From Spiractinospora alimapuensis (GTDB lineage: Bacteria; Actinomycetota; Actinomycetes; Streptosporangiales; Streptosporangiaceae), in assembly GCF_018437505.1 (NCBI RefSeq), contig NZ_CP072467.1, positions 124,001 through 188,000 of the forward strand: a DNA stretch of 64,000 bases, written 5' to 3'. A model generated the notes under the pieces. The model ran no database searches. It worked only from the letters and a program-made list of their open reading frames with translations, and was not told where the DNA came from. Shown here one piece after another: positions 4,077 to 29,496 of the stretch. Position 1 is the first letter of the stretch; each line of letters starts with the position of its first letter. The translations under genes and the position numbers were made by a program.

Positions 4077-4270
4077 CCGTGCTGTCCCGTCCTCGTCGAT
4101 GATGTGGGTCAGGCTACGCGCAGGCGCGTCCCGGCGGAACGCCGTCGCGGTGTGTCCTCGCGGCGTCTTCCCCGGGGTTCGGACGCGGGCGGGGACGATC
4201 GGTGCCACGCGGACGAACACTCAACGGGGACGTCGTCGTTGCCCTAGGCTGGATCGGAGGGGTCCACCAG

Positions 4271-7880: not shown

Positions 7881-10610
<2,730 letters not shown>

Positions 10611-10631
10611 TCGCGGGCGTCACGACGACGG

Positions 10632-10668
10632 GCGGGGGCACCCCATCATCACGATGGGGTGCCCCCGC
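10632..10668 (+). terminator. Intrinsic terminator after acnA
   Basis: A 15 bp perfect stem (10632-10646 with 10654-10668) with a 7-base loop lies 21 bp beyond the stop codon and is followed by a T-rich tract (ttTcgTTTcg). Confidence 0.9.
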
Positions 10669-11045
10669 TTTCGTTTCGCTCGGACGGCTCCCCGGGGTCG
10701 CGGGTGACCTGTCCCGCGTCCGGTGCGACTGATTCCGTCGTGCGTTCGACGGGAGCGTTACATCGGGGTGAGACGTTCCTACTCCCTCGGTGACATCGAG
10801 GTTTTTTCGGATTCACATCTGGCGCTCAGGATTTTCCAATGAGACCCTAATGTTGGGACGCATCAGCTACAGGTGCGCGGTTCGCCGAGCGGGATCGGAC
10901 AACCGGCGCTGGACCGACACCGTCGGCTCGGCCCGTGCGTTCGGAGGATCGACACCTGGGTCGGATGACCGTCCGTGATGTGGCGGAGCGCGGGACCCCG
11001 CGCACCGCCCGACACGTGTACAGTCCGCCGAGACTTGGAGAAGCT
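10669..11045. other. Intergenic region with a weak second hairpin
   Basis: No gene recognised in these 377 bp. A 5 bp stem, CCTCG with CGAGG (10785-10801), is followed directly by six Ts and could stop or attenuate a plus-strand transcript that starts upstream of it. The surrounding 10800-10860 segment is unusually AT-rich for this genome and may hold the promoter of the small lipoprotein gene. Confidence 0.4.
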
Positions 11046-11216
11046 ATGACCGCCGAGACCCTCCGCAAGCTCGCAGCCACCGGCTTCATTTCCGGAATCG
11101 CCATCTTCGGCCTCGCCGCCTGCGACGACGCCGGCGGCGTCGACGACCCCGCGGTCGAGGACGACGGCGGCCTCGAGGAGGCCCCTGAGGATGGCATGGA
11201 CGACGACGAGGGCTGA
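11046..11216 (+). CDS. Small acidic lipoprotein
   Basis: A 56-residue protein with a lipoprotein signal: charged start MTAETLRKL, hydrophobic core GFISGIAIFG and lipobox LAAC with the acceptor cysteine at about residue 26. The mature part is only about 30 residues and almost wholly Asp/Glu/Gly (DDAGGVDDPAVEDDGG, then EDGMDDDEG). GGAGAAG precedes the ATG and a strong terminator follows, so it is a complete small transcription unit. I know no family for it. An extracytoplasmic metal- or cation-binding role is only a guess from the charge. Confidence 0.7.
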   Translation: MTAETLRKLAATGFISGIAIFGLAACDDAGGVDDPAVEDDGGLEEAPEDGMDDDEG

Positions 11217-11233
11217 CGCCTCCACACGTCGGG

Positions 11234-11268
11234 AAACGGTGCGGGACCTTGGGTCCCGCACCGTTTTT
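11234..11268 (+). terminator. Intrinsic terminator after the small lipoprotein
   Basis: A 15 bp perfect stem (11234-11248 with 11252-11266), a 3-base loop and a T-run ending at 11268, located 17 bp past the stop codon. Confidence 0.92.
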
Positions 11269-11356
11269 CGTGCGACGACACACGGGCTGGGAGAGCTTCG
11301 CGTTCAAGGCTTGTACGATCGGGACCTGAGAAGACGCTCCACTGTGAGGAGGCTGG

Positions 11357-12509
11357 GTGCCGACCGACGCGACTCCCGGGTCCCAGGCCGCTCTCAGAGC
11401 GGCCAACCGCCAACGCGTCGTGGACGCCCTCGACGAGGGAACACTCACCCAGGCACAGATCGCTCGGACCACCGGGCTGTCCGCCGCCACCGTGTCGAAC
11501 ATCGTGCGGGACCTCCGCGCCAACGGCACGGTCGCGGTCCGGCTGACGTCCGCCAACGGCCGTCGTGCCCGCGCGGTCAGCCTGGTCCGCCCCGCCGGCG
11601 CGGTGGGTGCGGTGACGTTCGAGGTGGACTGTATCGAGGCCGCCGTCGCCGACGGTCGAGAACGCGTCCTCGCCCGGGAGCGCATCCCCTATGACGTCGC
11701 CGCGGACCCGCTGCGGGGAGTGCGACGGGGTGCGTGGCTGCTGGAGACCGTGTTGAACGCGGCCCGCCTGGACCGAGCCTCGGTCGCGCGTGTCGTGGCC
11801 TCGGTTCCGGGGCCCGTCGACCTCGCCACCGGAGAGGTGGGGGCGACGTCCTGCATGCCGCGCTGGGTGGGCTTCGCACCCGGCGCGGCGTTAGGCGATC
11901 GGATTCGCCTGCCCGTGTCGGTGGAGAACGACGCCAACCTGTGTGCCCTCGCCGAACACCGCATGGGCGAGGCGCGGGGGTTGGACCACGTCCTCTACGT
12001 GCGGCTCACCCATGGGGTCGGAGCGGGTCTCATCGTGGCGGGCCAGCTCGTGCGCGGAGCGGGGGGAAGCGCCGGGGAGTTCGGGCACATCTCCCTGGAC
12101 GAACGGGGGCAGGTGTGTCGGTGCGGCAACCGGGGGTGCCTGGAAACCCTGGCCGGTCCACCCTCCCTGGTGTCGATGGTGCCCAGCGGAGGCCCGGTGA
12201 CGGTGGCGGATCTGATCGCCGGTGCCCATGCCGGCGATCCGGGCAGTCGGCGCATCGTGGCAGAGGCAGGAGCCGCGCTCGGACGGGGACTGGCGATCAT
12301 GGCGACCGTGCTCAACCCGCAGTTGGTGGTGGTCGGGGGAGACATCGTCGCCACCGACGCGCTCCTCCTCGACCCCCTCCGCCGCAGTCTCGAACTCGGG
12401 GGCGTTGAGTACCGCGGTGCGGGATCTCCGCGTCGTCGCCGCGAGCGTCCGGGACGCTCCACTACGGGGAGCGCTGGCCCTCGCTCTGGCGTCCACCGCC
12501 GGGGGCTGA
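11357..12509 (+). pseudogene. ROK-family sugar-responsive transcriptional regulator with an apparent frameshift
   Basis: XylR/NagC-type repressor. It has an N-terminal winged helix (LTQAQIARTTGLSAATVSNIVRDL split over residues 30-55), a ROK kinase-like domain and the zinc motif CRCGNRGCLE. GTG start at 11357 with GAGGAGG upstream. The annotated frame runs on to 12562 with a Ser/Arg-rich nonsense tail. The frame one base over reads ALSTAVRDLRVVAAS then GALALALASTAGG, ending at 12509, which is the family's normal C-terminus. A five-G run at 12398-12402 is the likely slip point: removing one G restores about 384 residues. This is either an assembly error or a real mutation. It precedes the sugar ABC operon and probably controls it. 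Confidence 0.82.
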
Positions 12510-12564
12510 GGTCAGGCCACTCGTGCTCGTTGGCTCGTAGTGGCTCGGGCCTGCGGTCTTAGTG

Positions 12565-12581
12565 CGTTCAAGAATTGAACG
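12565..12581. promoter_or_regulatory. Palindromic operator 1 of the sugar ABC operon
   Basis: CGTTCAAGAATTGAACG has 7 bp inverted arms around GAA. It contains TTGAAC, which can serve as a -35 box with TACGGT (12597-12602) as -10 at 16 bp spacing. An operator over the -35 box fits repression by the adjacent ROK regulator (inference). Confidence 0.65.
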
Positions 12582-12609
12582 TACTCACCGTGACTCTACG
12601 GTTATGAAT

Positions 12610-12627
12610 TCAAGTCTTGACCTCAAG
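12610..12627. promoter_or_regulatory. Palindromic operator 2 of the sugar ABC operon
   Basis: TCAAGTCTTGA (12610-12620) is an 11 bp palindrome centred 42 bp (about four helical turns) from operator 1. It overlaps CTTGACCTCAAG, a relative of the aconitase palindromes. It lies just after the proposed -10, where a bound repressor would block transcription. Confidence 0.55.
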
Positions 12628-12731
12628 CTGAGGCGGGAGTTGACTGCGAACCACCAGCGCATCACGTGACGCGCATCACCCCCGGTGCCGCGCTCGTGGT
12701 GCGGTCCGTGCCCGAGCGGAGGGTGAGCAGA

Positions 12732-13859
12732 GTGGTCACGAGCACAACGGCGAGCAGGCGGGTACTGGGAGCGGCGGCCGGGGTGGCGGTCATGGGAATG
12801 ATCGCCACCGGTTGCGGGGCGACCACCACGGGAGACGGGGGCGACGAATCGTCCGCCGACGTCGAGGAGGGCTTCACCATCGGGCTGCTGCTCCCCGACG
12901 AGCACACGGCGCGCTACGAGGCCTTCGACTACCCCTACTTCGAGGAGGCCGTCGGCGACCTGTGCCCCGCCTGTGAGGTCAACTACCAGAACGCCGCCCA
13001 GGACACCGACCGGCAACAAAGTCAGGTGGAGGCGATGTTGACCGAGGGGATCGAGGTCATGGTCCTCGACGCCGTCGACGCCGCGGGTGCGGGAACCATG
13101 GTGCAACAGGCCAAGGACCAAGGCGTGCCCGTGGTCGCCTACGACCGGTTGGCCGAGGGCGGTGTGGACACCTACGTCTCCTTCGACAACGTCCGTGTCG
13201 GTGAGGTCCAGGGTGAGGCCCTCTTGGAGCGACTGGAGGAGGACGACAGCGTCGACGACGGCCAGGTCGTCGTCATGCACGGGTCGCCCACCGACCCCAA
13301 CGCCTCCAACTTCAAGGAGGGAGCCCTCTCCGTCCTGGCCGACGCCGTCGACATCGGCCAGGAGTACGACACCCCGGAGTGGTCACCCGACCAGGCACAG
13401 GAGCAGATGGACGCCGCGATCACCGCCATCGGCGCGGACGACATCGTGGGCGTGTACGCCGCCAACGACGGCCTCGCCGGAGGCGCGATCGCCGCCCTGC
13501 AGAGTGGCGGCGTGACCGACCTCCCACCGGTCACCGGTCAGGACGCCGAGCTCGCCGGGATCCAACGGATCGTGGCGGAGGAGCAGTACATGACCGTCTA
13601 CAAGGCGATCCGACCCGAAGCCGACACCGCCGCGGAGATGGCGGTCGCGTTGGCGACGGGCGAGGAGTACTCCGGTGAGCACGAGATGACGGAGGTCGAG
13701 GACGGCGAAGGCAACGCCGTCCAGGCCGTCCTGCTGGACCCGATCCCCGTGACGCTGGACAACGTGATGGACACCGTCGTCGAGGACGGCTTCTACACCG
13801 TCGAGGACATCTGCGCCGACGCCTACGCCGACACCGACTTCTGCGCCGAGAACGGCTAG
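12732..13859 (+). CDS. Sugar ABC transporter substrate-binding lipoprotein (xylose/ribose type)
   Basis: Periplasmic-binding-protein-type receptor anchored to the membrane by lipidation at the cysteine of IATGC. The mature domain begins GFTIGLLLPDEHTARYEAFD and contains the pentose/hexose-binder phrases EGIEVMVLDAVD, VPVVAYDRL, IVGVYAANDGLAGGAIAAL and LPPVTGQDAE. These fit the XylF group best. I place the start at GTG 12732, 9 bases after GGAGG; the frame is open from 12666. Hairpins between this gene and the ATPase gene may let it be expressed at a higher level than the membrane parts. Confidence 0.9.
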   Translation: MVTSTTASRRVLGAAAGVAVMGMIATGCGATTTGDGGDESSADVEEGFTIGLLLPDEHTARYEAFDYPYFEEAVGDLCPACEVNYQNAAQDTDRQQSQVEAMLTEGIEVMVLDAVDAAGAGTMVQQAKDQGVPVVAYDRLAEGGVDTYVSFDNVRVGEVQGEALLERLEEDDSVDDGQVVVMHGSPTDPNASNFKEGALSVLADAVDIGQEYDTPEWSPDQAQEQMDAAITAIGADDIVGVYAANDGLAGGAIAALQSGGVTDLPPVTGQDAELAGIQRIVAEEQYMTVYKAIRPEADTAAEMAVALATGEEYSGEHEMTEVEDGEGNAVQAVLLDPIPVTLDNVMDTVVEDGFYTVEDICADAYADTDFCAENG

Positions 13860-13877
13860 GCCGCGGTCCGCTCCGCC

Positions 13878-13899
13878 GCGGAGCCCACCGAGGCTCCGC
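13878..13899 (+). repeat. Intercistronic hairpin between binding protein and ATPase genes
   Basis: GCGGAGCC pairs with GGCTCCGC around a 6-base loop. It is preceded by a second, alternative inverted repeat, CCGCGG (13861-13866 and 13876-13881). There is no T-run, so RNA stabilisation of the upstream cistron is more likely than termination. Confidence 0.55.
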
Positions 13900-13953
13900 C
13901 ACGTTCGTGACCCCCTCAGGCGACCCCTGGTCGACGAAGGAGAACCATCTCGC

Positions 13954-14745
13954 ATGCCTCCCGTGCCCCATCCCATCCTGGAACTCACCGGAGTCTCCAA
14001 ACGGTTCGGCGCCGTCCAGGCGCTGAGTGACGTCGCGCTACGAATCGACGCCGGGGAGGTCGTCGCCCTCGTCGGAGACAACGGCGCGGGGAAGTCCACT
14101 CTGGTGAAGGCGATCGCCGGCGTCAGCCCCGCCGACACCGGGACGGTCCTCTGGAAGGGCCGTCCCGTCCGCATCACCAAGCCGGGCGACGCGCAGAACC
14201 TGGGGATCGCCACCATCTACCAGGACCTCGCTCTCTGCGACAACCTCGACATCGTGGCGAACCTCTTCCTCGGAACGGAGCACACGACGGCCGGCCTCCT
14301 GGACGAGCTGGAGATGGAACGCCGCGCCGCCGAACTCCTGGACTCGTTGTCGGTGCGGATCCCGAGCCTGCGCGTGCCCGTCGCCTCCCTGTCTGGTGGA
14401 CAACGCCAGATCATCGCCATCGCTCGATCCCTGTTGGGCGAGCCGGAGGTCGTGTTGCTCGACGAGCCGACCGCGGCACTCGGAGTGGCACAGACGGCCC
14501 AGGTGCTCGACCTGATCGAGCGGATGCGGGACCGGGGGCTCGGAATCATCCTCATCAGCCACAACATGGCGGACGTGCGGGCGGTGGCCGATCGCGCCGT
14601 CGTGCTGCGCCTGGGCCGCAACGGTGGCGACTTCGCCCTGGACGACACCAACTACGAGGAGATCGTCGCGGCGATCACCGGAGCCGGTGACGACGTGGTC
14701 ACCCGCAGGCCGCCCAGGGGCCAGATCGCAGAGGAGGGCCAATGA
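13954..14745 (+). CDS. Sugar ABC transporter ATP-binding protein (single ABC domain)
   Basis: ATPase subunit of the sugar importer, 263 residues. Walker A is GDNGAGKST near residue 44, the signature LSGGQRQ near 147 and Walker B VVLLDEPTAAL near 166, followed by the H-loop ISHNM. Unlike XylG/RbsA it has one ABC domain, like FrcA-type importers, so the complex would use a homodimer. Start at the ATG at 13954 behind AAGGAG. It overlaps the permease gene by ATGA, implying translational coupling. Confidence 0.93.
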   Translation: MPPVPHPILELTGVSKRFGAVQALSDVALRIDAGEVVALVGDNGAGKSTLVKAIAGVSPADTGTVLWKGRPVRITKPGDAQNLGIATIYQDLALCDNLDIVANLFLGTEHTTAGLLDELEMERRAAELLDSLSVRIPSLRVPVASLSGGQRQIIAIARSLLGEPEVVLLDEPTAALGVAQTAQVLDLIERMRDRGLGIILISHNMADVRAVADRAVVLRLGRNGGDFALDDTNYEEIVAAITGAGDDVVTRRPPRGQIAEEGQ

Positions 14746-16001
14746 CATCGGAGATCCAGTCCACCCCCGCCAACGGCTCGGGGCGCGCGGCCGATCCCCG
14801 TCTGGTGCGCGACCACGGCGCGGTGGGCGGGATCGCGGCGTCGTTGGTGCACCGGATCCGTGGCGGGGAACTGGGGCCGCTTCCCGTCATCGCGGGGCTG
14901 GCCGTCATCGCCGTCGTCTTCCAGTACCTGAACAGCTCCTTCCTCACCCCCCAGAACATCTCCAACATCGCCGTGCAGCTCGTGGGCTACGGACTCCTGT
15001 CCTCAGGCGTCATCATGGTGCTGTTGCTCGGCGAGATCGACCTGTCCATCGGTTCGCTCGCCGGAGTGTCCGGCGCGGTCCTGGCCGTGCTCACCGTCAA
15101 TATGGGACTGTCCGACCTCGCCGGGATCATCCTCGCCGTCGTCGTCGGGGCGGCGATCGGCGCCCTGCACGGCACCGTCTTCGCCAAACTCGGTGTCCCC
15201 GCGTTCGTGGTCACCCTGGCCGGCCTACTCGGCTGGAAGGGAGCCCACCTCTACATCCTCGGGGCCGAGGGCACGATCAACATTCCCCGTGACGGCCTGA
15301 TCGCCAGCCTCACCAAGACCTACTTCACCCCCGCCTACGGGTGGGCGATCGGTGTGGCCGCCGTCCTCGTCTTCCTCGCGGCGACCGTGTACGGCGAATG
15401 GCGCCGCGTCCACGCCGGCCTCGAGGCGCGTTCCGCGGCCGATGTCGCCCTGCGCACGACCGTCCTGGCCGTTCCGGTCCTCGGAGGGGTCTACGTCCTG
15501 AACCTTTGGAACGGGGTGCCTCTCGCGTTCCTCATCTTCGTGGGGTTCGTGGTCGTCTTCGACATCGTGCTGCGGCGAACCCGCTACGGACGAATGGTGT
15601 TCGCGGTCGGCGGCAACGCCGAGGCCGCGCGTCGCGCTGGCATCAACGTGGATCTCGTGCGCATTAGCTGCTTCACGCTCTCCTCCACCCTGGCCGCGAT
15701 CGGCGGCGTCATGATCGTGTCGCGCAACAACGCCGTCAGCCAACAGACCGGCGGTGACGAAGTCCTGATGTTCGCCATCGCCGCCGCGGTCATCGGCGGG
15801 ACGAGTCTGTTCGGCGGGCGGGGAAGCGCGTACTCGGCGTTGCTCGGCATGCTCGTCATCCAGGCGATCACCGCGGGGCTCTTCCTGATGCAGATGTCGG
15901 CCTCGGTCCGTTTCATGATCACCGCGGTGGTGCTTCTGGTCGCCGTCGTCCTCGACGCGATGACCCGACGCAGCCGACGGGTCCACGCCCGCGGCGGGTA
16001 G
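14742..16001 (+). CDS. Sugar ABC transporter permease (XylH/RbsC type)
   Basis: Membrane subunit of the sugar importer, 419 residues with about ten hydrophobic segments. Family phrases are GEIDLSIGSLAGVSGAV, FAKLGVPAFVVTLAGL, the cytoplasmic EAA-like loop GGNAEAARRAGI near residue 287, and GGTSLFGGRGS. It has an extra N-terminal region of about 40 residues before the first helix. Four-base overlap with the ATPase gene. Sugar identity (probably xylose or a related pentose) rests on similarity in type and on the ROK regulator, not on proof. Confidence 0.92.
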   Translation: MTSEIQSTPANGSGRAADPRLVRDHGAVGGIAASLVHRIRGGELGPLPVIAGLAVIAVVFQYLNSSFLTPQNISNIAVQLVGYGLLSSGVIMVLLLGEIDLSIGSLAGVSGAVLAVLTVNMGLSDLAGIILAVVVGAAIGALHGTVFAKLGVPAFVVTLAGLLGWKGAHLYILGAEGTINIPRDGLIASLTKTYFTPAYGWAIGVAAVLVFLAATVYGEWRRVHAGLEARSAADVALRTTVLAVPVLGGVYVLNLWNGVPLAFLIFVGFVVVFDIVLRRTRYGRMVFAVGGNAEAARRAGINVDLVRISCFTLSSTLAAIGGVMIVSRNNAVSQQTGGDEVLMFAIAAAVIGGTSLFGGRGSAYSALLGMLVIQAITAGLFLMQMSASVRFMITAVVLLVAVVLDAMTRRSRRVHARGG

Positions 16002-18227: not shown

Positions 18228-20132
18228 TTGACGCTGCTTGAGTCGATCAACCACCCCGACGACCTCAAGAAGCTCCATCCCGCACAGCTTCCACGGCTGG
18301 CGCGGGAGATTCGCGAGTTCCTCGTCCGCGAGGTGACCCGCACCGGAGGCCACCTGGGACCAAACCTCGGGGTCGTCGAGCTCACCGTGGCCCTGCACCG
18401 GGTCTTCGACTCTCCCGACGACCCCGTGTTCTTCGACACCGGACACCAGTCCTATGTCCACAAGCTCCTCACCGGGCGCCAGGACTTCTCGGACCTGCGC
18501 CAGAGCGGTGGCCTCTCCGGCTACCCCTCGCGTGAGGAGTCCGAGCACGACATGGTGGAGAACTCCCACGCCTCCACCGCGCTGTCCTACGCCGACGGCT
18601 ACGCCAAGGCCAACGCCGTGCGGGGCCGCGGCGACTCCACGGCCGTGGCCGTCATCGGCGACGGGGCCCTCACCGGCGGTATGGCGTGGGAGGCGTTGAA
18701 CAACATCGCCGCCGGGCAGGACCGTCGCCTGGTCATCGTGGTCAACGACAACGGCCGCTCCTACTCGCCGACCATCGGCGGTCTGGCCGACCATCTCGCC
18801 TCGGTGCGCATGACGCCTGCCTACGAGCAGGCACTCGGTGTCGTCAAGGCGAGTCTGCACCGTACCCCCCTGGTCGGCCAACCCCTCTACGACGCGCTCC
18901 ACGGCATCAAGAAGGGGCTCAAGGACGCGATCCAGCCGCAGGTCATGTTCGAGGACCTCGGCCTGAAGTACGTCGGCCCGATCAACGGACACGACACCGC
19001 CGCCGTCGAGAGCGCGCTGCGCCGGGCCAAGGCCTTCGGCGGGCCGGTGATCGTGCACTGCATCACCCAGAAGGGCAAAGGTCACCCACCGGCGGAGAAC
19101 CACGAGGAGGACCAGTTCCACGCCGTGCGGGCCGCCGCGCCCACGGGCGCCTCCTCCGGACCGTCGCGACCCAAGTGGACGTCGGTGTTCCGTGAGGAGA
19201 TGGTGGAGGTCGGGGCGGAACGTTCCGACGTCGTGGCGATCACCGCGGCGATGCTCTACCCGACCGGACTCGACGCTTTCGCCGAGGCGTACCCGAACCG
19301 CTGCTTCGACGTCGGCATCGCCGAACAGCACGCGGCGACCTCCGCCGCGGGCCTCGCCATGGGCGGACTCCACCCCGTGGTCGCGGTCTACTCCACCTTC
19401 CTGAACCGCGCGTTCGACCAGGTCCTCATGGACGTCGCCCTGCACCGTACGGCGGTCACGTTCTGTCTGGACCGTGCCGGGGTCACCGGCCCGGACGGAG
19501 CGAGCCACCACGGGATGTGGGACCTGTCCATCCTCAATCTGGTGCCGGGCCTCGCGGTGGCGGTGCCCCGCGACGAGCCGCGGATGCGGGAGCTCCTGCG
19601 CGAGGCCGTGGCCGTGGACGACGGCCCCACGGCGCTGCGCTACCCCACCGGCTCGGTCCCGGCCGAGGTGCCGACCCTGGAGCACCGCGACGGCCTGGAC
19701 ATCCTGCACGATCCCACGACGGCCGAGCTGGACAAGGACCTCCTCCTGGTCGCGGTGGGGCCGATGGCGGGCCTTTGCCGCGACGTCGCCGAACGTCTGG
19801 CCCAGCAGGGCATCGGTGTCACGGTGGTCGACCCCCGGTGGGTGAAGCCGGTCAACCCCGCGCTGCTGCGGGAGGCGGAGCGGCACCGTGTGCTCGCGGT
19901 GGTCGAGGACAGCGGCCGCGCCGGGGGCGTCGGCGACGCCGTCGCCCGGGCGGTGCGCGAGCGGGACCTCGACGTCGCCGTGCGAACCTTCGGTGTCGAG
20001 CAGGAGTTCCTGCGCCATGGAGACCGTGCGGAGATCCTGGCCGAGCAGGGGCTCAGTCCCCAGGACTTGGCGCGGGATCTCACCGCCGCCGTCGCCAAAC
20101 GCGCGTCGGACCCGGTGCAGGAACCGGCCTGA
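18228..20132 (+). CDS. dxs: 1-deoxy-D-xylulose-5-phosphate synthase
   Basis: First enzyme of the MEP isoprenoid pathway; condenses pyruvate and glyceraldehyde-3-phosphate using thiamine diphosphate. The 634-residue protein has the TPP motif [16 protein letters not shown] near residue 144, the [13 protein letters not shown] segment, and the transketolase-like middle and C-terminal domains ([31 protein letters not shown]). It starts at TTG 18228 with GAGAGGA upstream, giving the usual MTLLESI beginning. It is monocistronic and downstream of a hairpin. Confidence 0.97.
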
Positions 20133-21914: not shown

Positions 21915-22173
21915 TCTTTCGTCGGGCGGTCCATGAGATCAAGAGCCTCTCCCGGGGCGCGGGGAAATGAACAGTCGGGGCACCGATATGCGGTGGTGAC
22001 CCAGTCCGACCGATTCGCCACGAGTTCGATAATCGTCGCGCTGACGTCAACGAGCACCGGTCGCGCGTTTATGGTCCAGAGACAGCCGTCTCGGGGAGTT
22101 CAAAGGAACGCTTGTCGGGGAAGAGCTGGCGGAACTCGATCGTGCCCTCGTGCTCACACTAGAGTCGCTCTGA
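21911..22173 (+). pseudogene. Decayed MazF/PemK-like toxin gene
   Basis: Three pieces in different frames together outline a MazF-type toxin. Piece 1 starts at TTG 21911 and reads MIFRRAVHEIKSLSRGAG, stopping at 21970. Piece 2, one frame over from about 21955, reads QSGHRYAVVTQSDRF then IIVALTSTSTGRA, the core of the PemK fold. Piece 3, from about 22064 to the TGA at 22173, reads DSRLGEFKGTLVGEELAELD and ends ALVLTLESL, the usual C-terminal helix. About 20-30 codons between pieces 2 and 3 appear lost. The remnant cannot give a full toxin. Its 3' end overlaps the convergent phosphatase gene by 15 bp. Confidence 0.72.
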
Positions 22174-23598
22174 TTTTCGTGCGCTCGACACGTCGGCGCC
22201 GGCCAACCGCAACAGGAGCTCCTTGACGTCGGTCGCGTGGATCCGGGGGACGGCCGCGTCGGGGGCGTCGCTGAGGAGGACGGGACCGTTCTCGGGGTCC
22301 GGCGGGGTGAGGCCGTGCGTCCCACGGACCTGGCGGCCGTTCAGGGGGATGACGTTCATCGTGTAGCGCATCCCGGACTTCTTGCGGGCCAGGGCGGTGG
22401 CGGCGCGGACCTTCACGAGCGGGTCGTCGGGGTCCATGAACAGTTCCGCGGGGTCGAAGCCGGGTTTGCGGTGGATCTCCACCAGTTTCGCGAAGTCCGG
22501 CGCGTAGTGGTCGTCCAACCAGTAGTAGTAGGTGAACCAGGCCTCGCGTTCGGCCAGCACGACCAACTCGCCGGACCGCGCGTGGTCCAGTCCGATCTCG
22601 GCCTGGTCACGGCGGTCCAGTACCTGGTCCACGCCGTCCAGGCGCTCCAGTACCTCGCGGGCGCGGGCCAGGTCCTCGGGTTCCCGGACGTAGACGTGGG
22701 CGATCTGGTGGTCGGCGACCGCGAACGCGCGCGACGTCCACGGGTCGAGGTACTCCATCTCGTCCTGGCTGTAGACCTCCAGCAGCCCCGCGTGACGGAG
22801 CGCCCGGTTGACGTCCACGGGGCGGCGGGCCGGGGTGATGCCGTACTCGCTGAGGGCCACGGTCGTCGCGCCGCGCTCCTTCGCCGCCATCAGTAGCGGG
22901 GCCATGGCCTGGTCCAGGTCGGCGGCGGCCCGCGCGGCTCGAGGGTCGTCCGGGCCGTAGCGCTGGAGGTCGTAGTCCAGGTGCGGCAGGTACACCAGGG
23001 TCAGGTCGGGGCGCTTGTCTCGGAGCAGAGCGCGGGCCGCCCCGACGAGCCACTCCGTGGAGGCGAGGCCGGCCGTCGGTCCCCAGTAGTTGAACAGCGG
23101 GAAGCCGCCCAGCTCCGCCGTGAGCTCCTCGTGCAGTGCGGGCGGGTAGGTGTAGCAGTCGGGCTCCTTCTTGCCGTCGGCGTAGTAGATGGGCCGCGGG
23201 GTGATCGTCCAGTCGGCGCTGGCCCCCATCGCGTACCACCAACACACGTTGGCGACGGTGTAGGTGTCGTCGCCCCCGCGGGGGTCCCCGCCCAGGGCGC
23301 GGCGGGCGGTCTCCCACACCTTCTCGCCCCCCACCAGGCGGTTGTGCTGTCTCCAGAGGTGGACCTCGCCCAGTTCGCGGAAGTACCAGCCGTTGGCGAC
23401 GGAGCCGTGGTCCCGGGGCGGGGTCCCGGTGAGGAGTGTGGACTGCATGGAGCAGGTCACCGCGGGCACGGTGGGTTCCAGCTCGGCCTGGAACCCGGCC
23501 GCCGCCAAGGCGGAGAGACGTGGCATGTGCCGCAGCAGGCGTGGCGTCAGGCCGACGACGTCGATGACGACGAGGGGCGTGGTGCCGTGGTCGCTCAA
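22159..23598 (-). CDS. Alkaline phosphatase superfamily phosphodiesterase (EboF-like)
   Basis: Type I phosphodiesterase/nucleotide-pyrophosphatase-like hydrolase of 479 residues, last gene of the ebo-like operon. The nucleophile segment PAVTCSMQSTLLTG lies near residue 46, with metal-site motifs PHLDYD, SEYGITP and GTHGLTP and the family phrase HGSVANGWYFRE. These place it with the nucleotide pyrophosphatases that accompany ebo genes. It starts at TTG 23598 behind GGAGG and overlaps the upstream gene by TTGA. No signal peptide is seen, so it likely acts in the cytoplasm on a phosphorylated or nucleotide-linked intermediate. The true substrate is unknown. Confidence 0.85.
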   Translation of the reverse strand: MSDHGTTPLVVIDVVGLTPRLLRHMPRLSALAAAGFQAELEPTVPAVTCSMQSTLLTGTPPRDHGSVANGWYFRELGEVHLWRQHNRLVGGEKVWETARRALGGDPRGGDDTYTVANVCWWYAMGASADWTITPRPIYYADGKKEPDCYTYPPALHEELTAELGGFPLFNYWGPTAGLASTEWLVGAARALLRDKRPDLTLVYLPHLDYDLQRYGPDDPRAARAAADLDQAMAPLLMAAKERGATTVALSEYGITPARRPVDVNRALRHAGLLEVYSQDEMEYLDPWTSRAFAVADHQIAHVYVREPEDLARAREVLERLDGVDQVLDRRDQAEIGLDHARSGELVVLAEREAWFTYYYWLDDHYAPDFAKLVEIHRKPGFDPAELFMDPDDPLVKVRAATALARKKSGMRYTMNVIPLNGRQVRGTHGLTPPDPENGPVLLSDAPDAAVPRIHATDVKELLLRLAGADVSSARKSERL

Positions 23599-24812
23599 GG
23601 CTCCTCCGTGAGTCCGAGGCGGATCAGATGTTCGCGGGTCCACGCCAGCTCCCCGGCGATACCCGCGGCGAGGGTGTCGTCGGGCGACTCCTCACCGGCA
23701 CGCTCGGCCGGGAGAACCGGCCAGGTGTAGGTCTCGACCTCCACGTGGCGCACCAACGCCGTCGGTCCGCCCAACACCTCAGAGAGCGTGGAGGCCAGGA
23801 CGTCGCGGGTGGTGCGCAGCCCGCCCGGCGGCTCGCCGTGCAGCGGCATGTGGAAGTGGACGCGCCAGGGGCCGTCGGGAGGGTCCGCCCGGTCCAGGAG
23901 GGCCAGCGCTTCGGGCAGGTCGTGGGTCCCCCCGATCGGCGCCGGATCGCCGGGGGCGGCGGGGTAGCGCGTCTGGTGCAGGAAACGTGGCTCCGCGAAT
24001 CGGGACAGGGCCGCCCGCGTGTCCGCGGAGTGAGGATGGTCGACGTGAAGCGCGGCCGAGGCCTGCAACTTCACCAGGGGTAGCCTCACCTGGCGCAATC
24101 GCCCCAGCGCCTCGGCGGGATCCTCGAAGGCGACCGCGAGATGGCAGGTGTCCAGACACACGCCCAGGGTGTCGCGATGCCGGGGATGGACGCCCGAGGC
24201 GATCGCGGCGGCGAGAGGTCCGGCCACGTCCCCACTGGTCTCCACCACACAGCCCGGCTCGGGTTCGAAGCCGACCCGGATCCGGCGCCCGGTGTCGTCG
24301 CGGACGCGCGACAGGCCGTCGGCCAGGCGCGACAGGTGGCCGCGACTGAGCACGGTGCGCTGTGGCTCCCACCAGTCGGCCCATCCCAGCGGCAGGGTCG
24401 AGACACTGCCGTCGACGGCGTCCTCGGGCAGCAGGTGGCCCAGGATCCGCGCGAGCTCGAGTGTGTAGTCCAGACGCGCCCGTGTGGACCAGTCGGGTCG
24501 GTAGACCGCCGTCTTCACGACGTCGTCGCCGAAGCCCTGGTAGGGAAACCCGTTGAGAGTCACCACCTCGATGCCGTTGTCCGTCAGCCAGTCGCGGAGG
24601 TCGGAGAGCGCCGCCGGGTCGCCGTCCAGTGTCCGGGCGACGCCACGGGGCAGCCACAGCCCGACCCCGATCCGGCCCGCCCCCAGCCGCCTCCGCGCTG
24701 GCACGGCCACGGCGGACAGTCGTTCGCGGATCCCCGCGAGCGTCTCGGCCGGATGAACGTTCGCACAGTAGGCCAGGTGGACCAGGCTTCCGTCCGCGTG
24801 ACGGAACCTCAT
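23595..24812 (-). CDS. eboE: Metabolite traffic protein EboE (xylose-isomerase-like TIM barrel)
   Basis: A 405-residue TIM-barrel protein beginning MRFRHADGSLVHLAYCANVHPAE, the characteristic EboE opening. The barrel metal-site-like residues appear in LNGFPYQGFG, VGFEPEPGCVVE, CLDTCHLAVAFE and HVDHPH. EboE is named from cyanobacterial ebo clusters, where the operon is needed to move a scytonemin precursor to the periplasm; its own reaction is not established. ATGA overlap with the upstream TatD-like gene and TTGA overlap with the downstream phosphatase show tight coupling. Confidence 0.88.
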   Translation of the reverse strand: MRFRHADGSLVHLAYCANVHPAETLAGIRERLSAVAVPARRRLGAGRIGVGLWLPRGVARTLDGDPAALSDLRDWLTDNGIEVVTLNGFPYQGFGDDVVKTAVYRPDWSTRARLDYTLELARILGHLLPEDAVDGSVSTLPLGWADWWEPQRTVLSRGHLSRLADGLSRVRDDTGRRIRVGFEPEPGCVVETSGDVAGPLAAAIASGVHPRHRDTLGVCLDTCHLAVAFEDPAEALGRLRQVRLPLVKLQASAALHVDHPHSADTRAALSRFAEPRFLHQTRYPAAPGDPAPIGGTHDLPEALALLDRADPPDGPWRVHFHMPLHGEPPGGLRTTRDVLASTLSEVLGGPTALVRHVEVETYTWPVLPAERAGEESPDDTLAAGIAGELAWTREHLIRLGLTEEP

Positions 24813-25687
24813 CGCTCACCCGCGTCCACCGGGGCACCACGGCGCAGCGAGTTGCCGGCGAAGGTCTCGGACGTCGATTCGCCGCCGGGGTCCACTTCCA
24901 GGCGCAGCCGTCCACTCTGGCCGTAGAACTCCACCGGGTTACGCCACAGCACCCGGTCCACGTCGTCGGTGTCGAACCCCGCGTCGAACATGGCGCGCGC
25001 GGTGTGCACGGTCGTCAGCGGATCGCTGTGCCCCCAGTCCGCGGCCGAGTTGACCAGTATCCGTTCCGTGCCGTACTCCGTGAGCAGACGCACCATCCGC
25101 CGGGGGTCCATCTTCGTGTCCGGGTAGATGGAGAACCCCATCCAGCACCCACTGTCGGCGACGGGTCTGATCGTCACCTCGTTGAGGTGGTCGACCACGA
25201 CCAGTTCCGGAGCCAGTCCCGACTCCGCGACGACGTCCAAGGTGCGGCGTGTCCCCGCCGCCTTGTCCCGATGGGGGGTGTGGACGAGAGCGGGGAGGCC
25301 GTGTTCCCGGGCGAGCTGGAGCTGGCGCGCGAACACCTCGTCCTCGTCCGGGGTCATGGAGTCGTACCCCACCTCGCCGACGGCCACGACACCGTCCTTG
25401 GCGAGGTAGCGCGGCAGGACGTCCAGCACCTCGCGGCACCGCGGGTCGTTGGCCTCCTTGGGGTTGAGAGCGATCGTCGCGTGGTGTGCGATGCCGAACT
25501 GGGACGCTCGGAACGGTTCCCACCCCACGAGCCCGTCGAAGTAGTCGGTGAAGCTGCCGACGCTCGTGCGGGGCTGGCCGAGCCAGAACGCGGGCTCGAC
25601 CAAGGCGCGAACCCCGGCGCCGGCCATCGCCCGGTAGTCGTCCGTGGTTCGGGACGTCATGTGGATGTGTGGGTCGAAGATGCGCAT
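24809..25687 (-). CDS. TatD-like metal-dependent hydrolase (EboB-like)
   Basis: Amidohydrolase-type TIM barrel of 292 residues. MRIFDPHIHMTSRTTDDY carries the HxH metal motif at about residues 7-9. Later ligands lie in VGEVGYDSM (Glu), LVHTPHRDK (His), VVDHLNE and the final Asp of NSAADWGH. This matches TatD-family hydrolases found in ebo clusters. The reaction is unknown; TatD enzymes elsewhere are nucleases or phosphodiesterases. Its ATG shares a base with the stop of the upstream eboA (TGATG), and its stop overlaps eboE by ATGA. Confidence 0.86.
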   Translation of the reverse strand: MRIFDPHIHMTSRTTDDYRAMAGAGVRALVEPAFWLGQPRTSVGSFTDYFDGLVGWEPFRASQFGIAHHATIALNPKEANDPRCREVLDVLPRYLAKDGVVAVGEVGYDSMTPDEDEVFARQLQLAREHGLPALVHTPHRDKAAGTRRTLDVVAESGLAPELVVVDHLNEVTIRPVADSGCWMGFSIYPDTKMDPRRMVRLLTEYGTERILVNSAADWGHSDPLTTVHTARAMFDAGFDTDDVDRVLWRNPVEFYGQSGRLRLEVDPGGESTSETFAGNSLRRGAPVDAGER

Positions 25688-26400
25688 CAGTTCTCCTTCG
25701 CGTCGAGGACCTCGAGAGCTCTCCGCGCGGCCGCGGCCCGGTGGGCGTCGGTGGAGCGCAGTTCGGCCCGGATCCGATCCACCTGGCTGGGCGAACCCAC
25801 GATCAGGTGGATCGCGCCCCGGGGAACGTCGCGCCCCGCCGCGACTCGTTCGATGGCGAAGTCGCCCACCATGCGGGTCATCTCCGCGTCGGCGCGCGCG
25901 TCGAGCCCGCTCACGTTCGCGAGGTCGACCCCGGTGAACAGACACTTGAGGACCGCGTGTCGATAGGCGGGAGGGTCGAGGTGGCGGGCCGCGTAGTCGC
26001 CCACCGCGGCGGCGACCAGCGTGGTGTCGTTTCCGCGCAGCGCGTCGTGGACGAGCGGCAGCGCCGTTGTGCCCAGACGTGGTGCCAGGGGATCCAGACA
26101 CCGCAGGACCGACCGTTTCTCCCCGGCGTCGCCGTAACGGTAGACCTCGGCGACCTCCTGGGAGAGCGAGGGGGAGTCCACCGCGTCCAGCAGGGCAAGG
26201 CGTGCCGCGTCGGCGACCGTCCACCCGGGCAGCGACGCCAGGGGCGCCGTTCCGCAGTGCCGCGCCGCCGCGGGGAAGGACGCCGCCAACCCGCGGGAGG
26301 GCGCGGCGCGCACCGAGTCCAGGGCCGTGTCCAACCACTGGGCCGCCGACGTGGAGAGTGCGTGCCGCAGGGGTCGGAGAACGGGATCAGTCTCGCGCAT
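25687..26400 (-). CDS. eboA: EboA domain protein
   Basis: A 237-residue, mostly helical protein of the EboA family. Visible landmarks are helical repeats with conserved segments VAEVYRYGDAGEKRSVLRCLD, LVHDALRGNDTTLVAAA, AVLKCLFTGVDLANVSGLD and MTRMVGDFAIERVAAGRDVP. The family has no known activity and looks HEAT-repeat-like, so a scaffold role is possible. ATG at 26400; it overlaps the upstream TIM-barrel gene by 14 bp and shares one base with the next start codon. It serves as the marker gene that identifies the operon as ebo-type. Confidence 0.87.
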   Translation of the reverse strand: MRETDPVLRPLRHALSTSAAQWLDTALDSVRAAPSRGLAASFPAAARHCGTAPLASLPGWTVADAARLALLDAVDSPSLSQEVAEVYRYGDAGEKRSVLRCLDPLAPRLGTTALPLVHDALRGNDTTLVAAAVGDYAARHLDPPAYRHAVLKCLFTGVDLANVSGLDARADAEMTRMVGDFAIERVAAGRDVPRGAIHLIVGSPSQVDRIRAELRSTDAHRAAAARRALEVLDAKEN

Positions 26401-27247
26401 GGGCCTCCTTCGTGCGTAGGAATCGCTGGGCACGCTCCGCGACCGCCGGTGCGGCGTGCACGTGGCGGGGCAGCTCCACGCCGACGAGGCCCCGATAGCC
26501 GAGGTCGTGGAGCGCGGAGAGCACCGGAGGGAAGTCGAGTTCGCCGTGTCCCGGCTCGAGATGCTCGTGCACGCCGCGACGCATGTCCTCGATCTGCACC
26601 GCGACCAGGTCCCCACCCACGGCGTGGACGCAGTCGTGGGGTGTGCGCGTCTCCACGCACAGGCAGTGGCCGATGTCGAGCGTGATCCCGAACCCCGGCG
26701 GGCGTCCCAGGCGGTCGCGCAGCGTCAGGTAGTCGCTGACGCGTTCGACGAACATGCCGGGCTCCGGCTCGAACCCGACCCACAACCCGGTGGGTCGCAC
26801 CTGGTCCAGGAGGCGTCGGCAGTTCGTGGTCAGGCGTCGCCAGAGAACGTCGGTGGGGATGCCGGGCGCGGCGGTGCCGCTCCAGATCGACAGAGTGGGG
26901 GCCCCGAGGTCCGCCGCGATGCTGGCACACCGTGAGAGGTAGTCCAGGCGCGGCTCCGGATCCTCGTCGAGGAGGGTGGGGGAGTGCTTGTGCCGCGGGT
27001 CGAGGACGTAGCGCGCACCCGTCTCCACGGTCACGTCCAAGCCGAGCTGGTCCACCAGGCGGGCGAACGCGCCGACGCGTCGGGACAGCGCGGGCGCGTA
27101 GGGATCCAGGTGGCAGGTGTCGGGGGTGAGGGCGACCCCGTCATACCCGAGGTCGGCGAGGACGCGGACGGCCTCGTCCAGTCGGTGGTTGGTGAATCCG
27201 TTGGTGCCGTAACCGAGGCGGAGCCCGGTTCGCGCGACGCCGCTCAC
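26387..27247 (-). CDS. Sugar phosphate isomerase/epimerase-like TIM barrel, second EboE-type protein of the operon
   Basis: AP-endonuclease-2/xylose-isomerase-like barrel of 286 residues. Barrel-strand motifs include LGYGTNGFTNH, GVALTPDTCHLDP, DVTVETGARYVLD, VGFEPEPGMF (metal-binding Glu), ITLDIGHCLCVE (Asp/His) and LVGVELPRHVH (final Glu). It shares the FEPEPG signature with EboE of the same operon, suggesting an old duplication or related substrates. Starts at GTG 27247, overlapping the upstream UbiA stop by GTGA. It has no direct counterpart in the six-gene cyanobacterial ebo set as I recall it. Confidence 0.84.
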   Translation of the reverse strand: MSGVARTGLRLGYGTNGFTNHRLDEAVRVLADLGYDGVALTPDTCHLDPYAPALSRRVGAFARLVDQLGLDVTVETGARYVLDPRHKHSPTLLDEDPEPRLDYLSRCASIAADLGAPTLSIWSGTAAPGIPTDVLWRRLTTNCRRLLDQVRPTGLWVGFEPEPGMFVERVSDYLTLRDRLGRPPGFGITLDIGHCLCVETRTPHDCVHAVGGDLVAVQIEDMRRGVHEHLEPGHGELDFPPVLSALHDLGYRGLVGVELPRHVHAAPAVAERAQRFLRTKEAHARD

Positions 27248-28131
27248 GTGGGAGACACGCGGCGGGCGAGACGGCGGGCCAGGGGGTGGGCCCCCACGAG
27301 TCCGAGCGCGCCACGGTAGGCGCCCGACCCGGCGGCCAGCGCCGCCTGGAGCGGCATCATCGCGAGGATCCCGGCCCCGACGGCTGTGCGTACCCGTTGG
27401 GGGGTGGGACGGCGCATCGCGTCGAGCAGCGGGCGGCCCGTCGTCGCCGCGTATCCGAGGGCGAGCCCGACCGCGGTCACCCGGCCACGTACGTCACCCA
27501 CCTCGGATCGGCGTGGTCGGCCGGAGCGCCAGAGTACGGCCGAGGTGACGGCGCCCGTCGTGGCCAGGGGAGCGAGGACCCGGTTGGAAGTGGTTCCCGA
27601 CACCTCGTCGCGGCTGAGCCCCGTGACCGCGAACGTGTGGGCGGCCATACACGCCGCGGGCAGCGCGACCGCCCGGAGCGCCGAACGTTCCGCGCCGGCG
27701 CCCATGGCGACGTCCAGGCCGCGCGCCGTGGCCATCGCCACGGGCCCAAGGACCGTGGGCTTGAGCGCGAGGTCGTAGGCCCACACCGTCGCGGCCAACG
27801 GGGCGGCGACGCCCAGGGCGCGACGTCCACCGGCGGCGGACGCCAAGCCGAGTCCGGTCGCGGTGAGGACCGAGGCGGTCATGAGCGCCTGGCCGGGCGT
27901 GACCCGGCCTGAGGGGATGGGGCGCTCCGGGCGTTCCTCGGCGTCCAGCTCCCGGTCGGCGTAGTCGTTGAGCGCCATGCCCGCCCAGTACAGGCAGACC
28001 GACGCGCCGGCCGCGGCGACGGTGCGCCGCCCATAGGGGAAACCCGCCGCGGCGGCGCCGGCGAGGACGTCTCCGGGCACGGACAGAGCCGCCGGAGCGC
28101 GCACGAGGGACAGGAGGTCGCGTGGTCTCAT
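27244..28131 (-). CDS. eboC: UbiA-family prenyltransferase (EboC-like)
   Basis: Integral membrane prenyltransferase of 295 residues with about eight or nine helices. The first Asp-rich motif is NDYADRELD near residue 52, followed by RPERPIPSGRV. The second motif region is YDLALKPTVLGPVAMATARG near residue 127. These are the Mg-diphosphate and acceptor-binding signatures of UbiA enzymes, which join a prenyl group to a small polar acceptor. The acceptor here is plausibly the cyclitol-type product of the adjacent cyclase (inference). ATG at 28131 overlaps the upstream stop by ATGA. Confidence 0.88.
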   Translation of the reverse strand: MRPRDLLSLVRAPAALSVPGDVLAGAAAAGFPYGRRTVAAAGASVCLYWAGMALNDYADRELDAEERPERPIPSGRVTPGQALMTASVLTATGLGLASAAGGRRALGVAAPLAATVWAYDLALKPTVLGPVAMATARGLDVAMGAGAERSALRAVALPAACMAAHTFAVTGLSRDEVSGTTSNRVLAPLATTGAVTSAVLWRSGRPRRSEVGDVRGRVTAVGLALGYAATTGRPLLDAMRRPTPQRVRTAVGAGILAMMPLQAALAAGSGAYRGALGLVGAHPLARRLARRVSPT

Positions 28132-29342
28132 CGGGCCCTCCCGGGCGTGGATCCGAGCCGTTCGGCGAACTGGCGAACCATCGTGGCCTGCGTCGCGAGG
28201 TCGTGCACGGAGGTGTCGATCGGGTCCTTGAAGAAATAGGCGAGCTCGGGGACCGGGCCTGATCGTCCGTGGGCGTTCGCGGCGACCATGAGGCGGGCCA
28301 GGTCCAGCACCAGGGGCGCCGCGAGGGCCGAGTCCAGGCCCTGCCAGGTGAACTGCAGCGACATCGAGGCACCGAGGAATCCGGCGAAGGAGATGTGGTC
28401 CCACGCGGTCTTCCATTCGCCCAGATCGGCCACGTGGTCGATGTGCAGCGGGGCGTCGACCGGGTATCCGAGCAAGGACGAGACGAGGCCGCCCTTGGAC
28501 GCCAACTTGCTCGCCGCGGTCTCAGGGTCGGCGAGACTCGCGCCGTCACCGCCGCCGAGGAGGTTGGTGCCCGACCACGACCGAACCCGTAGGTGGCGGG
28601 AGGCGAACATAGGGGCGAGTACGGATTTGAGCAATGTCTCGCCGGTCTTGCCGTCGCTGCCGGCATAGGGAACGTGGTTACGCGCCGCGAGTTCGGCCAG
28701 GGCTGGGATCCCGGCACCGACCGACGGTGTGAAGTTGACGTAGCCGAAACCGGCGGAGAAGGCCGCGTGCGCGTACCGCGCGCTGGCGGGTAGGACGTGC
28801 GCGCCCGAACGCGTCGCCGCCGTGAGCGCGTCCAGACTGGCGAACTCCGGGCGTTGGGGGGTGGGGGGTTCGGTCGAGGCCAGGTTGATGACCACGACGT
28901 CGCGCAGCCCCCGCTCCCGCGCGAAACGGCCGATGTCGTCTCGCAGGCGGTCCAGCCCGTCGCTCGGGTGCTCCTGACCGTGTCCGCGGGCGACGCCGTC
29001 GACGATGTTCGCGTCGGCGTCCTCGAGGTCGGCGCGGATCGCGGCCGGAAGATCCGGTGGCAGCACGCCGGCTCGGGCCAGGTGCTCGGCCCGTTTCGTC
29101 AGGGTGGTGCCCGCCCCCGCGCCGTGCTCGTGGCCACCGAACACCAGCCGCGCGACGTCGGGGAGCGCGTGTTGGGGGAATCCCGGTGTCCGAGTGACGA
29201 GTCCGGTGTCGTCGGCCAACGTGTGGCGCAGTGCGGCCGCTCCGGCGATCGCGGTGGTGGCCACCGAACCGCGGGCACCGATCAGCCAAACGCCATAGCG
29301 GTGGTCGGCGAATTTGGGGTCGACGGATTGGGAGGGGGCCAT
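28128..29342 (-). CDS. Myo-inositol-1-phosphate-synthase-like cyclase, first gene of the ebo-like operon
   Basis: NAD-dependent inositol-3-phosphate synthase family protein of 404 residues. The Rossmann motif is GVWLIGARGSVATTAIAG near residue 17. The catalytic region contains GSDGKTGETLLKSVLAPMF and NLLGGGDG, with the dimer/NAD segment FTPSVGAGIPAL. Family members turn glucose-6-phosphate into inositol phosphate. This one sits where other ebo clusters carry a dehydroquinate-synthase-like sugar phosphate cyclase (EboD). ATG at 29342 with GGAGAGG 8 bases upstream. An AT-rich promoter region precedes it. Confidence 0.88.
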   Translation of the reverse strand: MAPSQSVDPKFADHRYGVWLIGARGSVATTAIAGAAALRHTLADDTGLVTRTPGFPQHALPDVARLVFGGHEHGAGAGTTLTKRAEHLARAGVLPPDLPAAIRADLEDADANIVDGVARGHGQEHPSDGLDRLRDDIGRFARERGLRDVVVINLASTEPPTPQRPEFASLDALTAATRSGAHVLPASARYAHAAFSAGFGYVNFTPSVGAGIPALAELAARNHVPYAGSDGKTGETLLKSVLAPMFASRHLRVRSWSGTNLLGGGDGASLADPETAASKLASKGGLVSSLLGYPVDAPLHIDHVADLGEWKTAWDHISFAGFLGASMSLQFTWQGLDSALAAPLVLDLARLMVAANAHGRSGPVPELAYFFKDPIDTSVHDLATQATMVRQFAERLGSTPGRAR

Positions 29343-29496
29343 TGGACGTGCCTCTCCAGGTTGGTCCAAGGGCGTGCCGGCGCCCGCGCATTATCACCGT
29401 TATTGGGATTGATGATCACATAGGAAAGAATGGACGTAAAGAGTCGTTTTTGTGAAAAATGACCACTAACAACGTGGTTTTGGATATTTCACGTGG
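29343..29496. promoter_or_regulatory. AT-rich control region upstream of the ebo-like operon
   Basis: This 154 bp stretch is strikingly AT-rich for the genome (long A/T tracts around 29390-29490) and precedes the operon's first gene. On the minus strand GATAAT near 29391 is a fair -10 box. I could not find a matching -35. It is also just downstream of the zinc peptidase gene. Confidence 0.45.

Follow-up and report, generated by a model that had tools for sequence, protein, structure and literature searches.

The ebo operon (eboABCDEF) has been described from eustigmatophyte plastids, Bacteroidetes and cyanobacteria (PMC5133447, PMC6282210), and its product was unknown at the time of its description in 2016 (PMC5133447); no later identification was found in our literature searches. 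Its EboD-like cyclases are thought to give a C7 cyclitol from which the phosphate has been removed (PMC5133447), a canonical EboC transfers a farnesyl group to quinoline acids in vitro (PMC9235831), and in Nostoc deletion of ebo stops a periplasmic step of scytonemin synthesis, with ebo and scyE deletions sharing the same phenotype (PMC6282210). In the present study, a stretch of 64,000 nucleotides from the actinobacterium Spiractinospora alimapuensis (contig NZ_CP072467.1, positions 124,001 to 188,000; hereafter the window) was analysed, for which a preliminary description made from the letters alone had reported an ebo-type operon with an inositol-synthase-like cyclase. This operon consists of seven genes on the minus strand at 22159–29342, successive genes overlapping by 4, 4, 14, 1, 4 and 4 bases, which confirms the extent, single direction and overlaps of 1 to 14 bases first given for it. 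In operons of this type, an archaeal-type inositol-1-phosphate synthase and, usually, a ketose-epimerase-like barrel occupy the place of EboD.

Parts of this picture are already in print, i.e., the ebo operon itself and an EboA fusion in actinobacteria (PMC5133447), as well as an actinobacterial ebo region (PMC9235831). The latter, from Saccharomonospora, likewise joins an actinobacterial UbiA prenyltransferase (UbiA-297) with ebo neighbours; the paper names EboA to EboE, EboD included, and the word inositol is absent from its main text. Moreover, in Streptomyces coelicolor a "putative transferase" (SCO3242) adjoins a "myo-inositol phosphate synthase" (SCO3243), both listed within the CDA region, and those parts of PMC3610822 that deal with them handle them as CDA-cluster genes and state no ebo link. 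NCBI has already named both EboE and the SCO3242 family, the latter lending its name to model NF045897. For the replacement of EboD by a myo-inositol-1-phosphate synthase (MIPS), the haloarchaeal gene set and the sugar-oxidation neighbourhood detailed below, no description was found in the literature searched (most subscription papers lying outside it), and searches for MIPS or 3-keto sugars together with ebo returned nothing relevant.

The cyclase and its ebo partners

The cyclase gene (28128–29342, ATG start) encodes a MIPS-like, NAD-dependent sugar-phosphate cyclase of 404 amino acids, with the NAD-binding and MIPS domains PF07994 (142 bits) and PF01658 (102 bits). Its nearest solved structure is the MIPS of Archaeoglobus fulgidus (1u1i, E=4.5e-66), the mycobacterial enzyme 1gr0 being a far weaker match (2e-13). 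Throughout the active-site stretch the alignment with the A. fulgidus enzyme is free of gaps at an offset of +5, and residues K279, K283, K311, K372, N260 and D337 correspond to K274, K278, K306, K367, N255 and D332, which we take to be the catalytic residues of the enzyme, in line with mutant structure entries among the matches. All of these residues are kept in the operon cyclase and are invariant in 22 relatives, including the haloarchaeal ones. Judging from its sequence, the operon cyclase is thus likely a functional MIPS, or closely related to one in function, and, since all mapped catalytic residues are kept, may well catalyse ordinary inositol-1-phosphate synthesis, which would not conflict with its linkage to ebo genes. 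The A. fulgidus enzyme, which shares these conserved residues, serves in the synthesis of inositol solutes and lipids, and we know of no ebo genes adjoining it.

The operon cyclase is not the housekeeping INO1 of mycothiol synthesis, as it scores 41 bits against the TIGR03450 equivalog with a cut-off of 638. A second, ordinary MIPS, distinct from that of the operon, is encoded at 3.58 Mb in the same genome, so general inositol supply does not depend on the operon MIPS. As the preliminary description held, the cyclase differs from EboD: none is present in the operon, and a profile of four EboD proteins found no match in this genome at E<=1e-50. Across 247 genomes of the class, the best score of this profile was 189 bits, and we read such matches as ordinary dehydroquinate synthases or their relatives.

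For comparison, four EboD-type clusters on annotated plasmids from Deinococcus, Azospirillum, Ketogulonicigenium and Mycetohabitans were used. The TatD-like protein of the window shares 51–59% identity with EboB of three of these clusters and 40% with that of Deinococcus, and the phosphodiesterase 48–52% with EboF of all four; this level of identity and the context identify them as EboB and EboF, respectively. EboE shares 36–38% identity with its counterparts, and EboA and UbiA share 32–37% and 32–39%, respectively, over the matched part. The locus therefore has orthologues of EboA, EboB, EboE and EboF, a relative of EboC and a tight operon in common with eboABCDEF, whereas MIPS stands in for EboD, an SCO3242-subfamily enzyme stands in for EboC, an epimerase-like barrel is added and the gene order differs.

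Family assignments were made with Pfam and NCBIfam hidden Markov models (cut-offs of 260 bits for NF045897, 50 for NF035938 and 250 for NF035939). The UbiA protein (27244–28131, ATG, 295 amino acids) scores 377 bits with NF045897 (SCO3242 prenyltransferase) and 147 bits with the EboC model NF035940, below its cut-off of 250, and is 27–39% identical to EboC sequences. Its NDxxDxxxD motif is invariant, whereas EboC and SCO3242 sequences alike have a degenerate second acidic motif. The additional barrel, absent from typical ebo clusters (26387–27247, GTG, 286 amino acids), belongs to the xylose-isomerase-like TIM barrels (PF01261, 128 bits) with a ketose-3-epimerase fold, so that a second barrel besides EboE is present, as had been proposed. 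Its AlphaFold model (pLDDT 94.9) superimposes on 3wqo with Z 32.6 and a root-mean-square deviation of 1.8 over 257 residues, and on UlaE (3cqi) with Z 29.5. E160, D191, H194 and E258 of this barrel are invariant and presumably form the metal site of the superfamily.

The homology of EboA and EboE, on which the preliminary description depended, is supported by the profile searches. EboE (23595–24812, ATG, 405 amino acids), itself a barrel of the xylose-isomerase superfamily, scores 407 bits with NF035939. EboA (25687–26400, ATG, 237 amino acids) scores 147 bits with the domain model NF035938 and 52 bits with the full-family model NF035937 (cut-off 320). It is modelled as an all-helical HEAT-like repeat (pLDDT 94.2), and a fold search returned generic HEAT/ARM matches alone, with E above 0.08 and Z up to 9.0, below a meaningful level for helical repeats. 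As this confident all-helical repeat fits such a role, EboA is probably a scaffold, and a comparable view has been put forward for cyanobacterial EboA (PMC6282210). The TatD-like metal-dependent hydrolase (24809–25687, ATG, 292 amino acids) scores 51 bits with PF01026. The last gene (22159–23598, 479 amino acids) encodes a type I phosphodiesterase/nucleotide pyrophosphatase (PF01663, 210 bits), whose start is best read as the TTG at 23598, preceded by GGAGGA; a longer form starting from the GTG at 23643 is possible. The AT-richer region just upstream of the operon (29343–29496, minus strand) is predicted to hold its promoter.

Recurrence across actinobacteria and beyond

The counts for the 247 class genomes span about ten families and are not corrected for relatedness. 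EboE was matched in 67 of these genomes (above cut-off in 64), and the ebo-type MIPS, defined by more than 500 bits with a profile of 22 MIPS proteins, in 60, every one of which is also EboE-positive. Conversely, four of the 64 genomes with EboE above cut-off are devoid of this MIPS; three carry a divergent EboE outside ebo operons, and the fourth (G173) has an operon without MIPS, with a Gfo/Idh gene and sugar ATP-binding cassette (ABC) genes upstream. The exact order MIPS–UbiA–barrel–EboA–TatD–EboE–phosphodiesterase was found in 57 of 80 named loci, drawn from Streptomyces, Nocardiopsis, Thermomonospora, Amycolatopsis, Micromonospora, Nocardioides, Georgenia, Glycomyces and others, while most of the remainder have a further barrel, miss a single gene or reach a contig end. 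Gene order is kept in nearly every complete locus of the class, and the recurrence of the seven genes is far beyond chance. Hence, the conserved linkage of the cyclase with ebo genes that had been proposed is borne out; of the outcome envisaged as its refutation, an ordinary inositol synthase lacking such linkage, the second half is contradicted by this strong conservation, whereas the chemistry of the cyclase may indeed be ordinary.

In a quick tree, to be used with caution, the actinobacterial ebo-type MIPS proteins form one group (SH-aLRT 97). About ten named loci carry an ebo-type MIPS without other ebo genes, and the ones placed in the tree branch from within the ebo-linked group, a position that points to loss or relocation. 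The distribution is patchy even between related genomes. In 13 of 66 loci the additional barrel is fused to EboA, an EboA fusion in actinobacteria having been noted before (PMC5133447).

Several loci depart from this pattern. One genome (G128) has two ebo operons (L057 and L058), one of which is without MIPS and, as read by eye, has genes for a CrtI-like oxidoreductase and an inositol-monophosphatase-like protein upstream. In two Micromonospora loci (L158 and L161, about 9700–15200), an ebo-type MIPS without ebo genes is followed by AMP-ligase-like and pyridoxal-phosphate-decarboxylase-like genes (again by eye), perhaps for an inositol-containing natural product. EboE-like barrels also occur outside ebo operons (L091, L115, L124 and L125–L128); those of L091, L115 and L124 (32–34% identity) adjoin what seem to be sugar ABC and dehydrogenase genes, indicating that the EboE fold serves elsewhere too.

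Calling the operon actinobacterial, as the preliminary description did, proved too narrow. Plasmids of the haloarchaea Halobaculum, Halocatena and Natronococcus carry MIPS (44–45% identity), UbiA, two barrels, TatD and phosphodiesterase genes together, the TatD and phosphodiesterase proteins being 45% and 38–41% identical, where compared, to those of the window. No EboA or EboE is annotated in these three sets; the two Halobaculum barrels match the EboE model weakly, and the UbiA of Halobaculum has similar scores with the EboC (178 bits) and SCO3242 (170 bits) models, below both cut-offs. Since the haloarchaeal sets do without EboA and EboE, they suggest that the cyclase, UbiA, the barrel(s), TatD and the phosphodiesterase form a minimal core. 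Within about 7 kb, a plasmid of Gemmatirosa (Gemmatimonadota) encodes MIPS, a barrel, UbiA, phosphodiesterase, TatD and EboE, with no EboD match on it. A planctomycete possibly has a related set as well, as MIPS and a barrel were found at the end of one contig, and planctomycetes without EboD have been noted (PMC5133447). A different MIPS cluster was seen on plasmids of Hymenobacter (L279, 7545–16246) and Roseomonas (L280, 7572–16738), with genes for an inositol-3-phosphate synthase, Gfo/Idh/MocA, YcaO, a sugar isomerase and a PIG-L deacetylase, and in Roseomonas also a glycosyltransferase 4; these clusters resemble a pseudodisaccharide pathway of the thiol type to which YcaO has been added.

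Genes around the operons

Recurrent neighbours of these operons encode secreted proteins of the GSDH, ThuA and 3-keto-disaccharide hydrolase families, Gfo/Idh/MocA enzymes, two additional barrels and sugar-binding proteins. Of the 65 sampled loci, 50 (about 77%) have one or more of seven sugar-oxidation families of this kind nearby, against 5 of 52 control regions picked at random in these genomes (Fisher p=6e-14, an optimistic value, as the seven query families were picked for recurring near the operons). With in-operon matches excluded and a ScyD/ScyE query added, a neighbour family was found at 51 of 65 sampled and 53 of 65 named loci. Taken by itself, Gfo/Idh showed no significant enrichment at the sampled loci (8 of 65 vs. 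2 of 52, p=0.18). The neighbours mostly lie on the same strand as the operon, with the 3-keto-disaccharide hydrolase upstream (median distance about 400 bases) and a barrel downstream (about 45 bases). In the haloarchaea, ThuA adjoins the Halocatena set, and a pyrroloquinoline quinone (PQQ)-type sugar dehydrogenase with ABC parts the Natronococcus set, which is independent support for a link with sugar oxidation. The EboD-type cluster of Ketogulonicigenium likewise adjoins two Gfo/Idh genes and a barrel.

On a plasmid of Streptomyces sp. NBC_00019, the MIPS gene of the ebo operon has the gene of a ScyD/ScyE-family NHL protein (L138, 4207–5406) immediately upstream. As a general neighbour this family was dismissed, being found at one locus only in each tested set. 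A supply of isoprenoid through the DXS gene at 18228–20132 of the window was also considered and rejected: DXS lies near 2 of 145 loci (none of 65 sampled and 2 of 80 named), so its closeness to the operon is probably chance. Elsewhere in the window, 6 kb past the operon end, a xylose-type sugar ABC importer is encoded (binding protein, ATPase and permease, 12666–16001), and a bacterial serpin (PF00079, 245 bits) is found at 2982–4220, serpins being, to our knowledge, not common in actinobacteria.

Proposed pathway and possible roles of its product

Taken together, these data make it very probable that the operon represents a conserved MIPS-type variant of the ebo pathway, and the odds somewhat favour a prenylated, inositol-derived product; for the variant and this product combined, we likewise lean towards acceptance. 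We infer the substrates, the sequence of reactions, the product and its use as follows. The cyclase would use glucose 6-phosphate to form the phosphate of an inositol (or inosose), the two barrels would act on a keto form and change its stereochemistry or the position of its oxidation, UbiA would add a prenyl chain, and TatD and the phosphodiesterase would trim a phosphate or another group, with EboA holding the pathway enzymes together. The ketone for the barrels could come from a dehydrogenase of the neighbourhood or from an altered MIPS. The resulting prenylated cyclitol would be held at the membrane, where its likeliest use in actinobacteria and haloarchaea would be as a carrier or cofactor on the outer face of the membrane, in a process tied to sugar oxidation via 3-keto sugars; this role we put forward tentatively, as the less probable part of the proposal. 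The preliminary description had similarly conjectured that a barrel epimerises the cyclitol, UbiA prenylates it and two hydrolases process it towards a prenylated cyclitol or an export carrier, and these steps stay conjecture. Its "two phosphoester hydrolases" overstated the case, because the TatD assignment extends to a family of metal-dependent hydrolases and not to a substrate.

Several points weigh against this proposal. The barrels would expect a ketose-like substrate, while the phosphate product of MIPS keeps no ketone, and neither a product nor an activity is known for an ebo reaction acting on a cyclitol. Since EboD-like cyclases would give a phosphate-free C7 cyclitol (PMC5133447), the intermediates of the two versions may differ, and as EboD-type cyclases drop the phosphate that MIPS keeps, a phosphate unique to one version cannot simply explain EboF. 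EboC accepted aromatic quinolines, cyclitols not being reported (PMC9235831). As for sugar oxidation, the enriched families were chosen because they recur near these operons, and, apart from the xylose-type ABC importer, no queried family lies within the 64 kb of the window, so that the link is not visible from the window sequence.

An ebo-dependent periplasmic export phenotype is known to us in Nostoc only (PMC6282210), and there the shared phenotype of the ebo and scyE deletions fits either an export or a cofactor role. A lipid carrier with which a polar metabolite crosses the membrane, the proposal made for export of the scytonemin monomer (PMC6282210), would suit the membrane enzyme UbiA and the scaffold fold of EboA, but the operon contains no transporter or flippase and a lipid-bound monomer was not found in Nostoc (PMC6282210), making this a doubtful alternative. 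A prenylated redox molecule, i.e., an enolised or aromatised, quinone-like cyclitol acting as cofactor or electron acceptor of extracytoplasmic beta-propeller dehydrogenases (GSDH, ScyE-like), seems unlikely too: it would account for the operons having GSDH, ThuA and 3-keto-hydrolase genes as neighbours, the PQQ-dependent dehydrogenase gene beside the Natronococcus set, the ScyD/ScyE-family gene upstream of MIPS in Streptomyces NBC_00019, the common Nostoc phenotype (PMC6282210) and the prenylation of an aromatic ring by EboC (PMC9235831), yet the operon itself has no aromatising or oxidising enzyme, the ScyD/ScyE neighbour occurs just once per tested set and the same Nostoc data have been interpreted as a transport defect.

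We give equally little credence to a structural prenyl-inositol ether lipid, for which UbiA would act like digeranylgeranylglyceryl phosphate synthase. UbiA does have weak matches to that enzyme and to chlorophyll synthase, and an archaeal-type MIPS with relatives in haloarchaea would agree with it; such a lipid, however, would leave two barrels, TatD and the phosphodiesterase unnecessary and sits poorly with patchy occurrence even among related genomes. Least probable of these is a role in the breakdown of a cyclitol or keto-sugar, with MIPS and UbiA on the sidelines, since both belong to biosynthetic families and are near-constant in the operon, even though barrels, Gfo/Idh/MocA enzymes and ABC-type sugar importers lie close by and EboE-like proteins occur in sugar-catabolic-looking loci. 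The preferred reading remains the MIPS-type ebo variant with a prenylated inositol-derived product. Its widest extension we regard as improbable in full, namely that bacteria and haloarchaea share a pathway to an unknown membrane molecule of this kind, serving as cofactor or as electron or hydride carrier for sugar oxidation outside the membrane, and that the cyanobacterial ebo pathway produces a counterpart of this molecule by way of another cyclase.

Finally, MIPS is readily assayed, actinobacteria can be grown and their genes deleted, and the sugar-oxidation neighbours offer a testable phenotype. The replacement of EboD by an inositol synthase implies that the ebo pathway probably needs a cyclitol, with glucose 6-phosphate as one possible entry.

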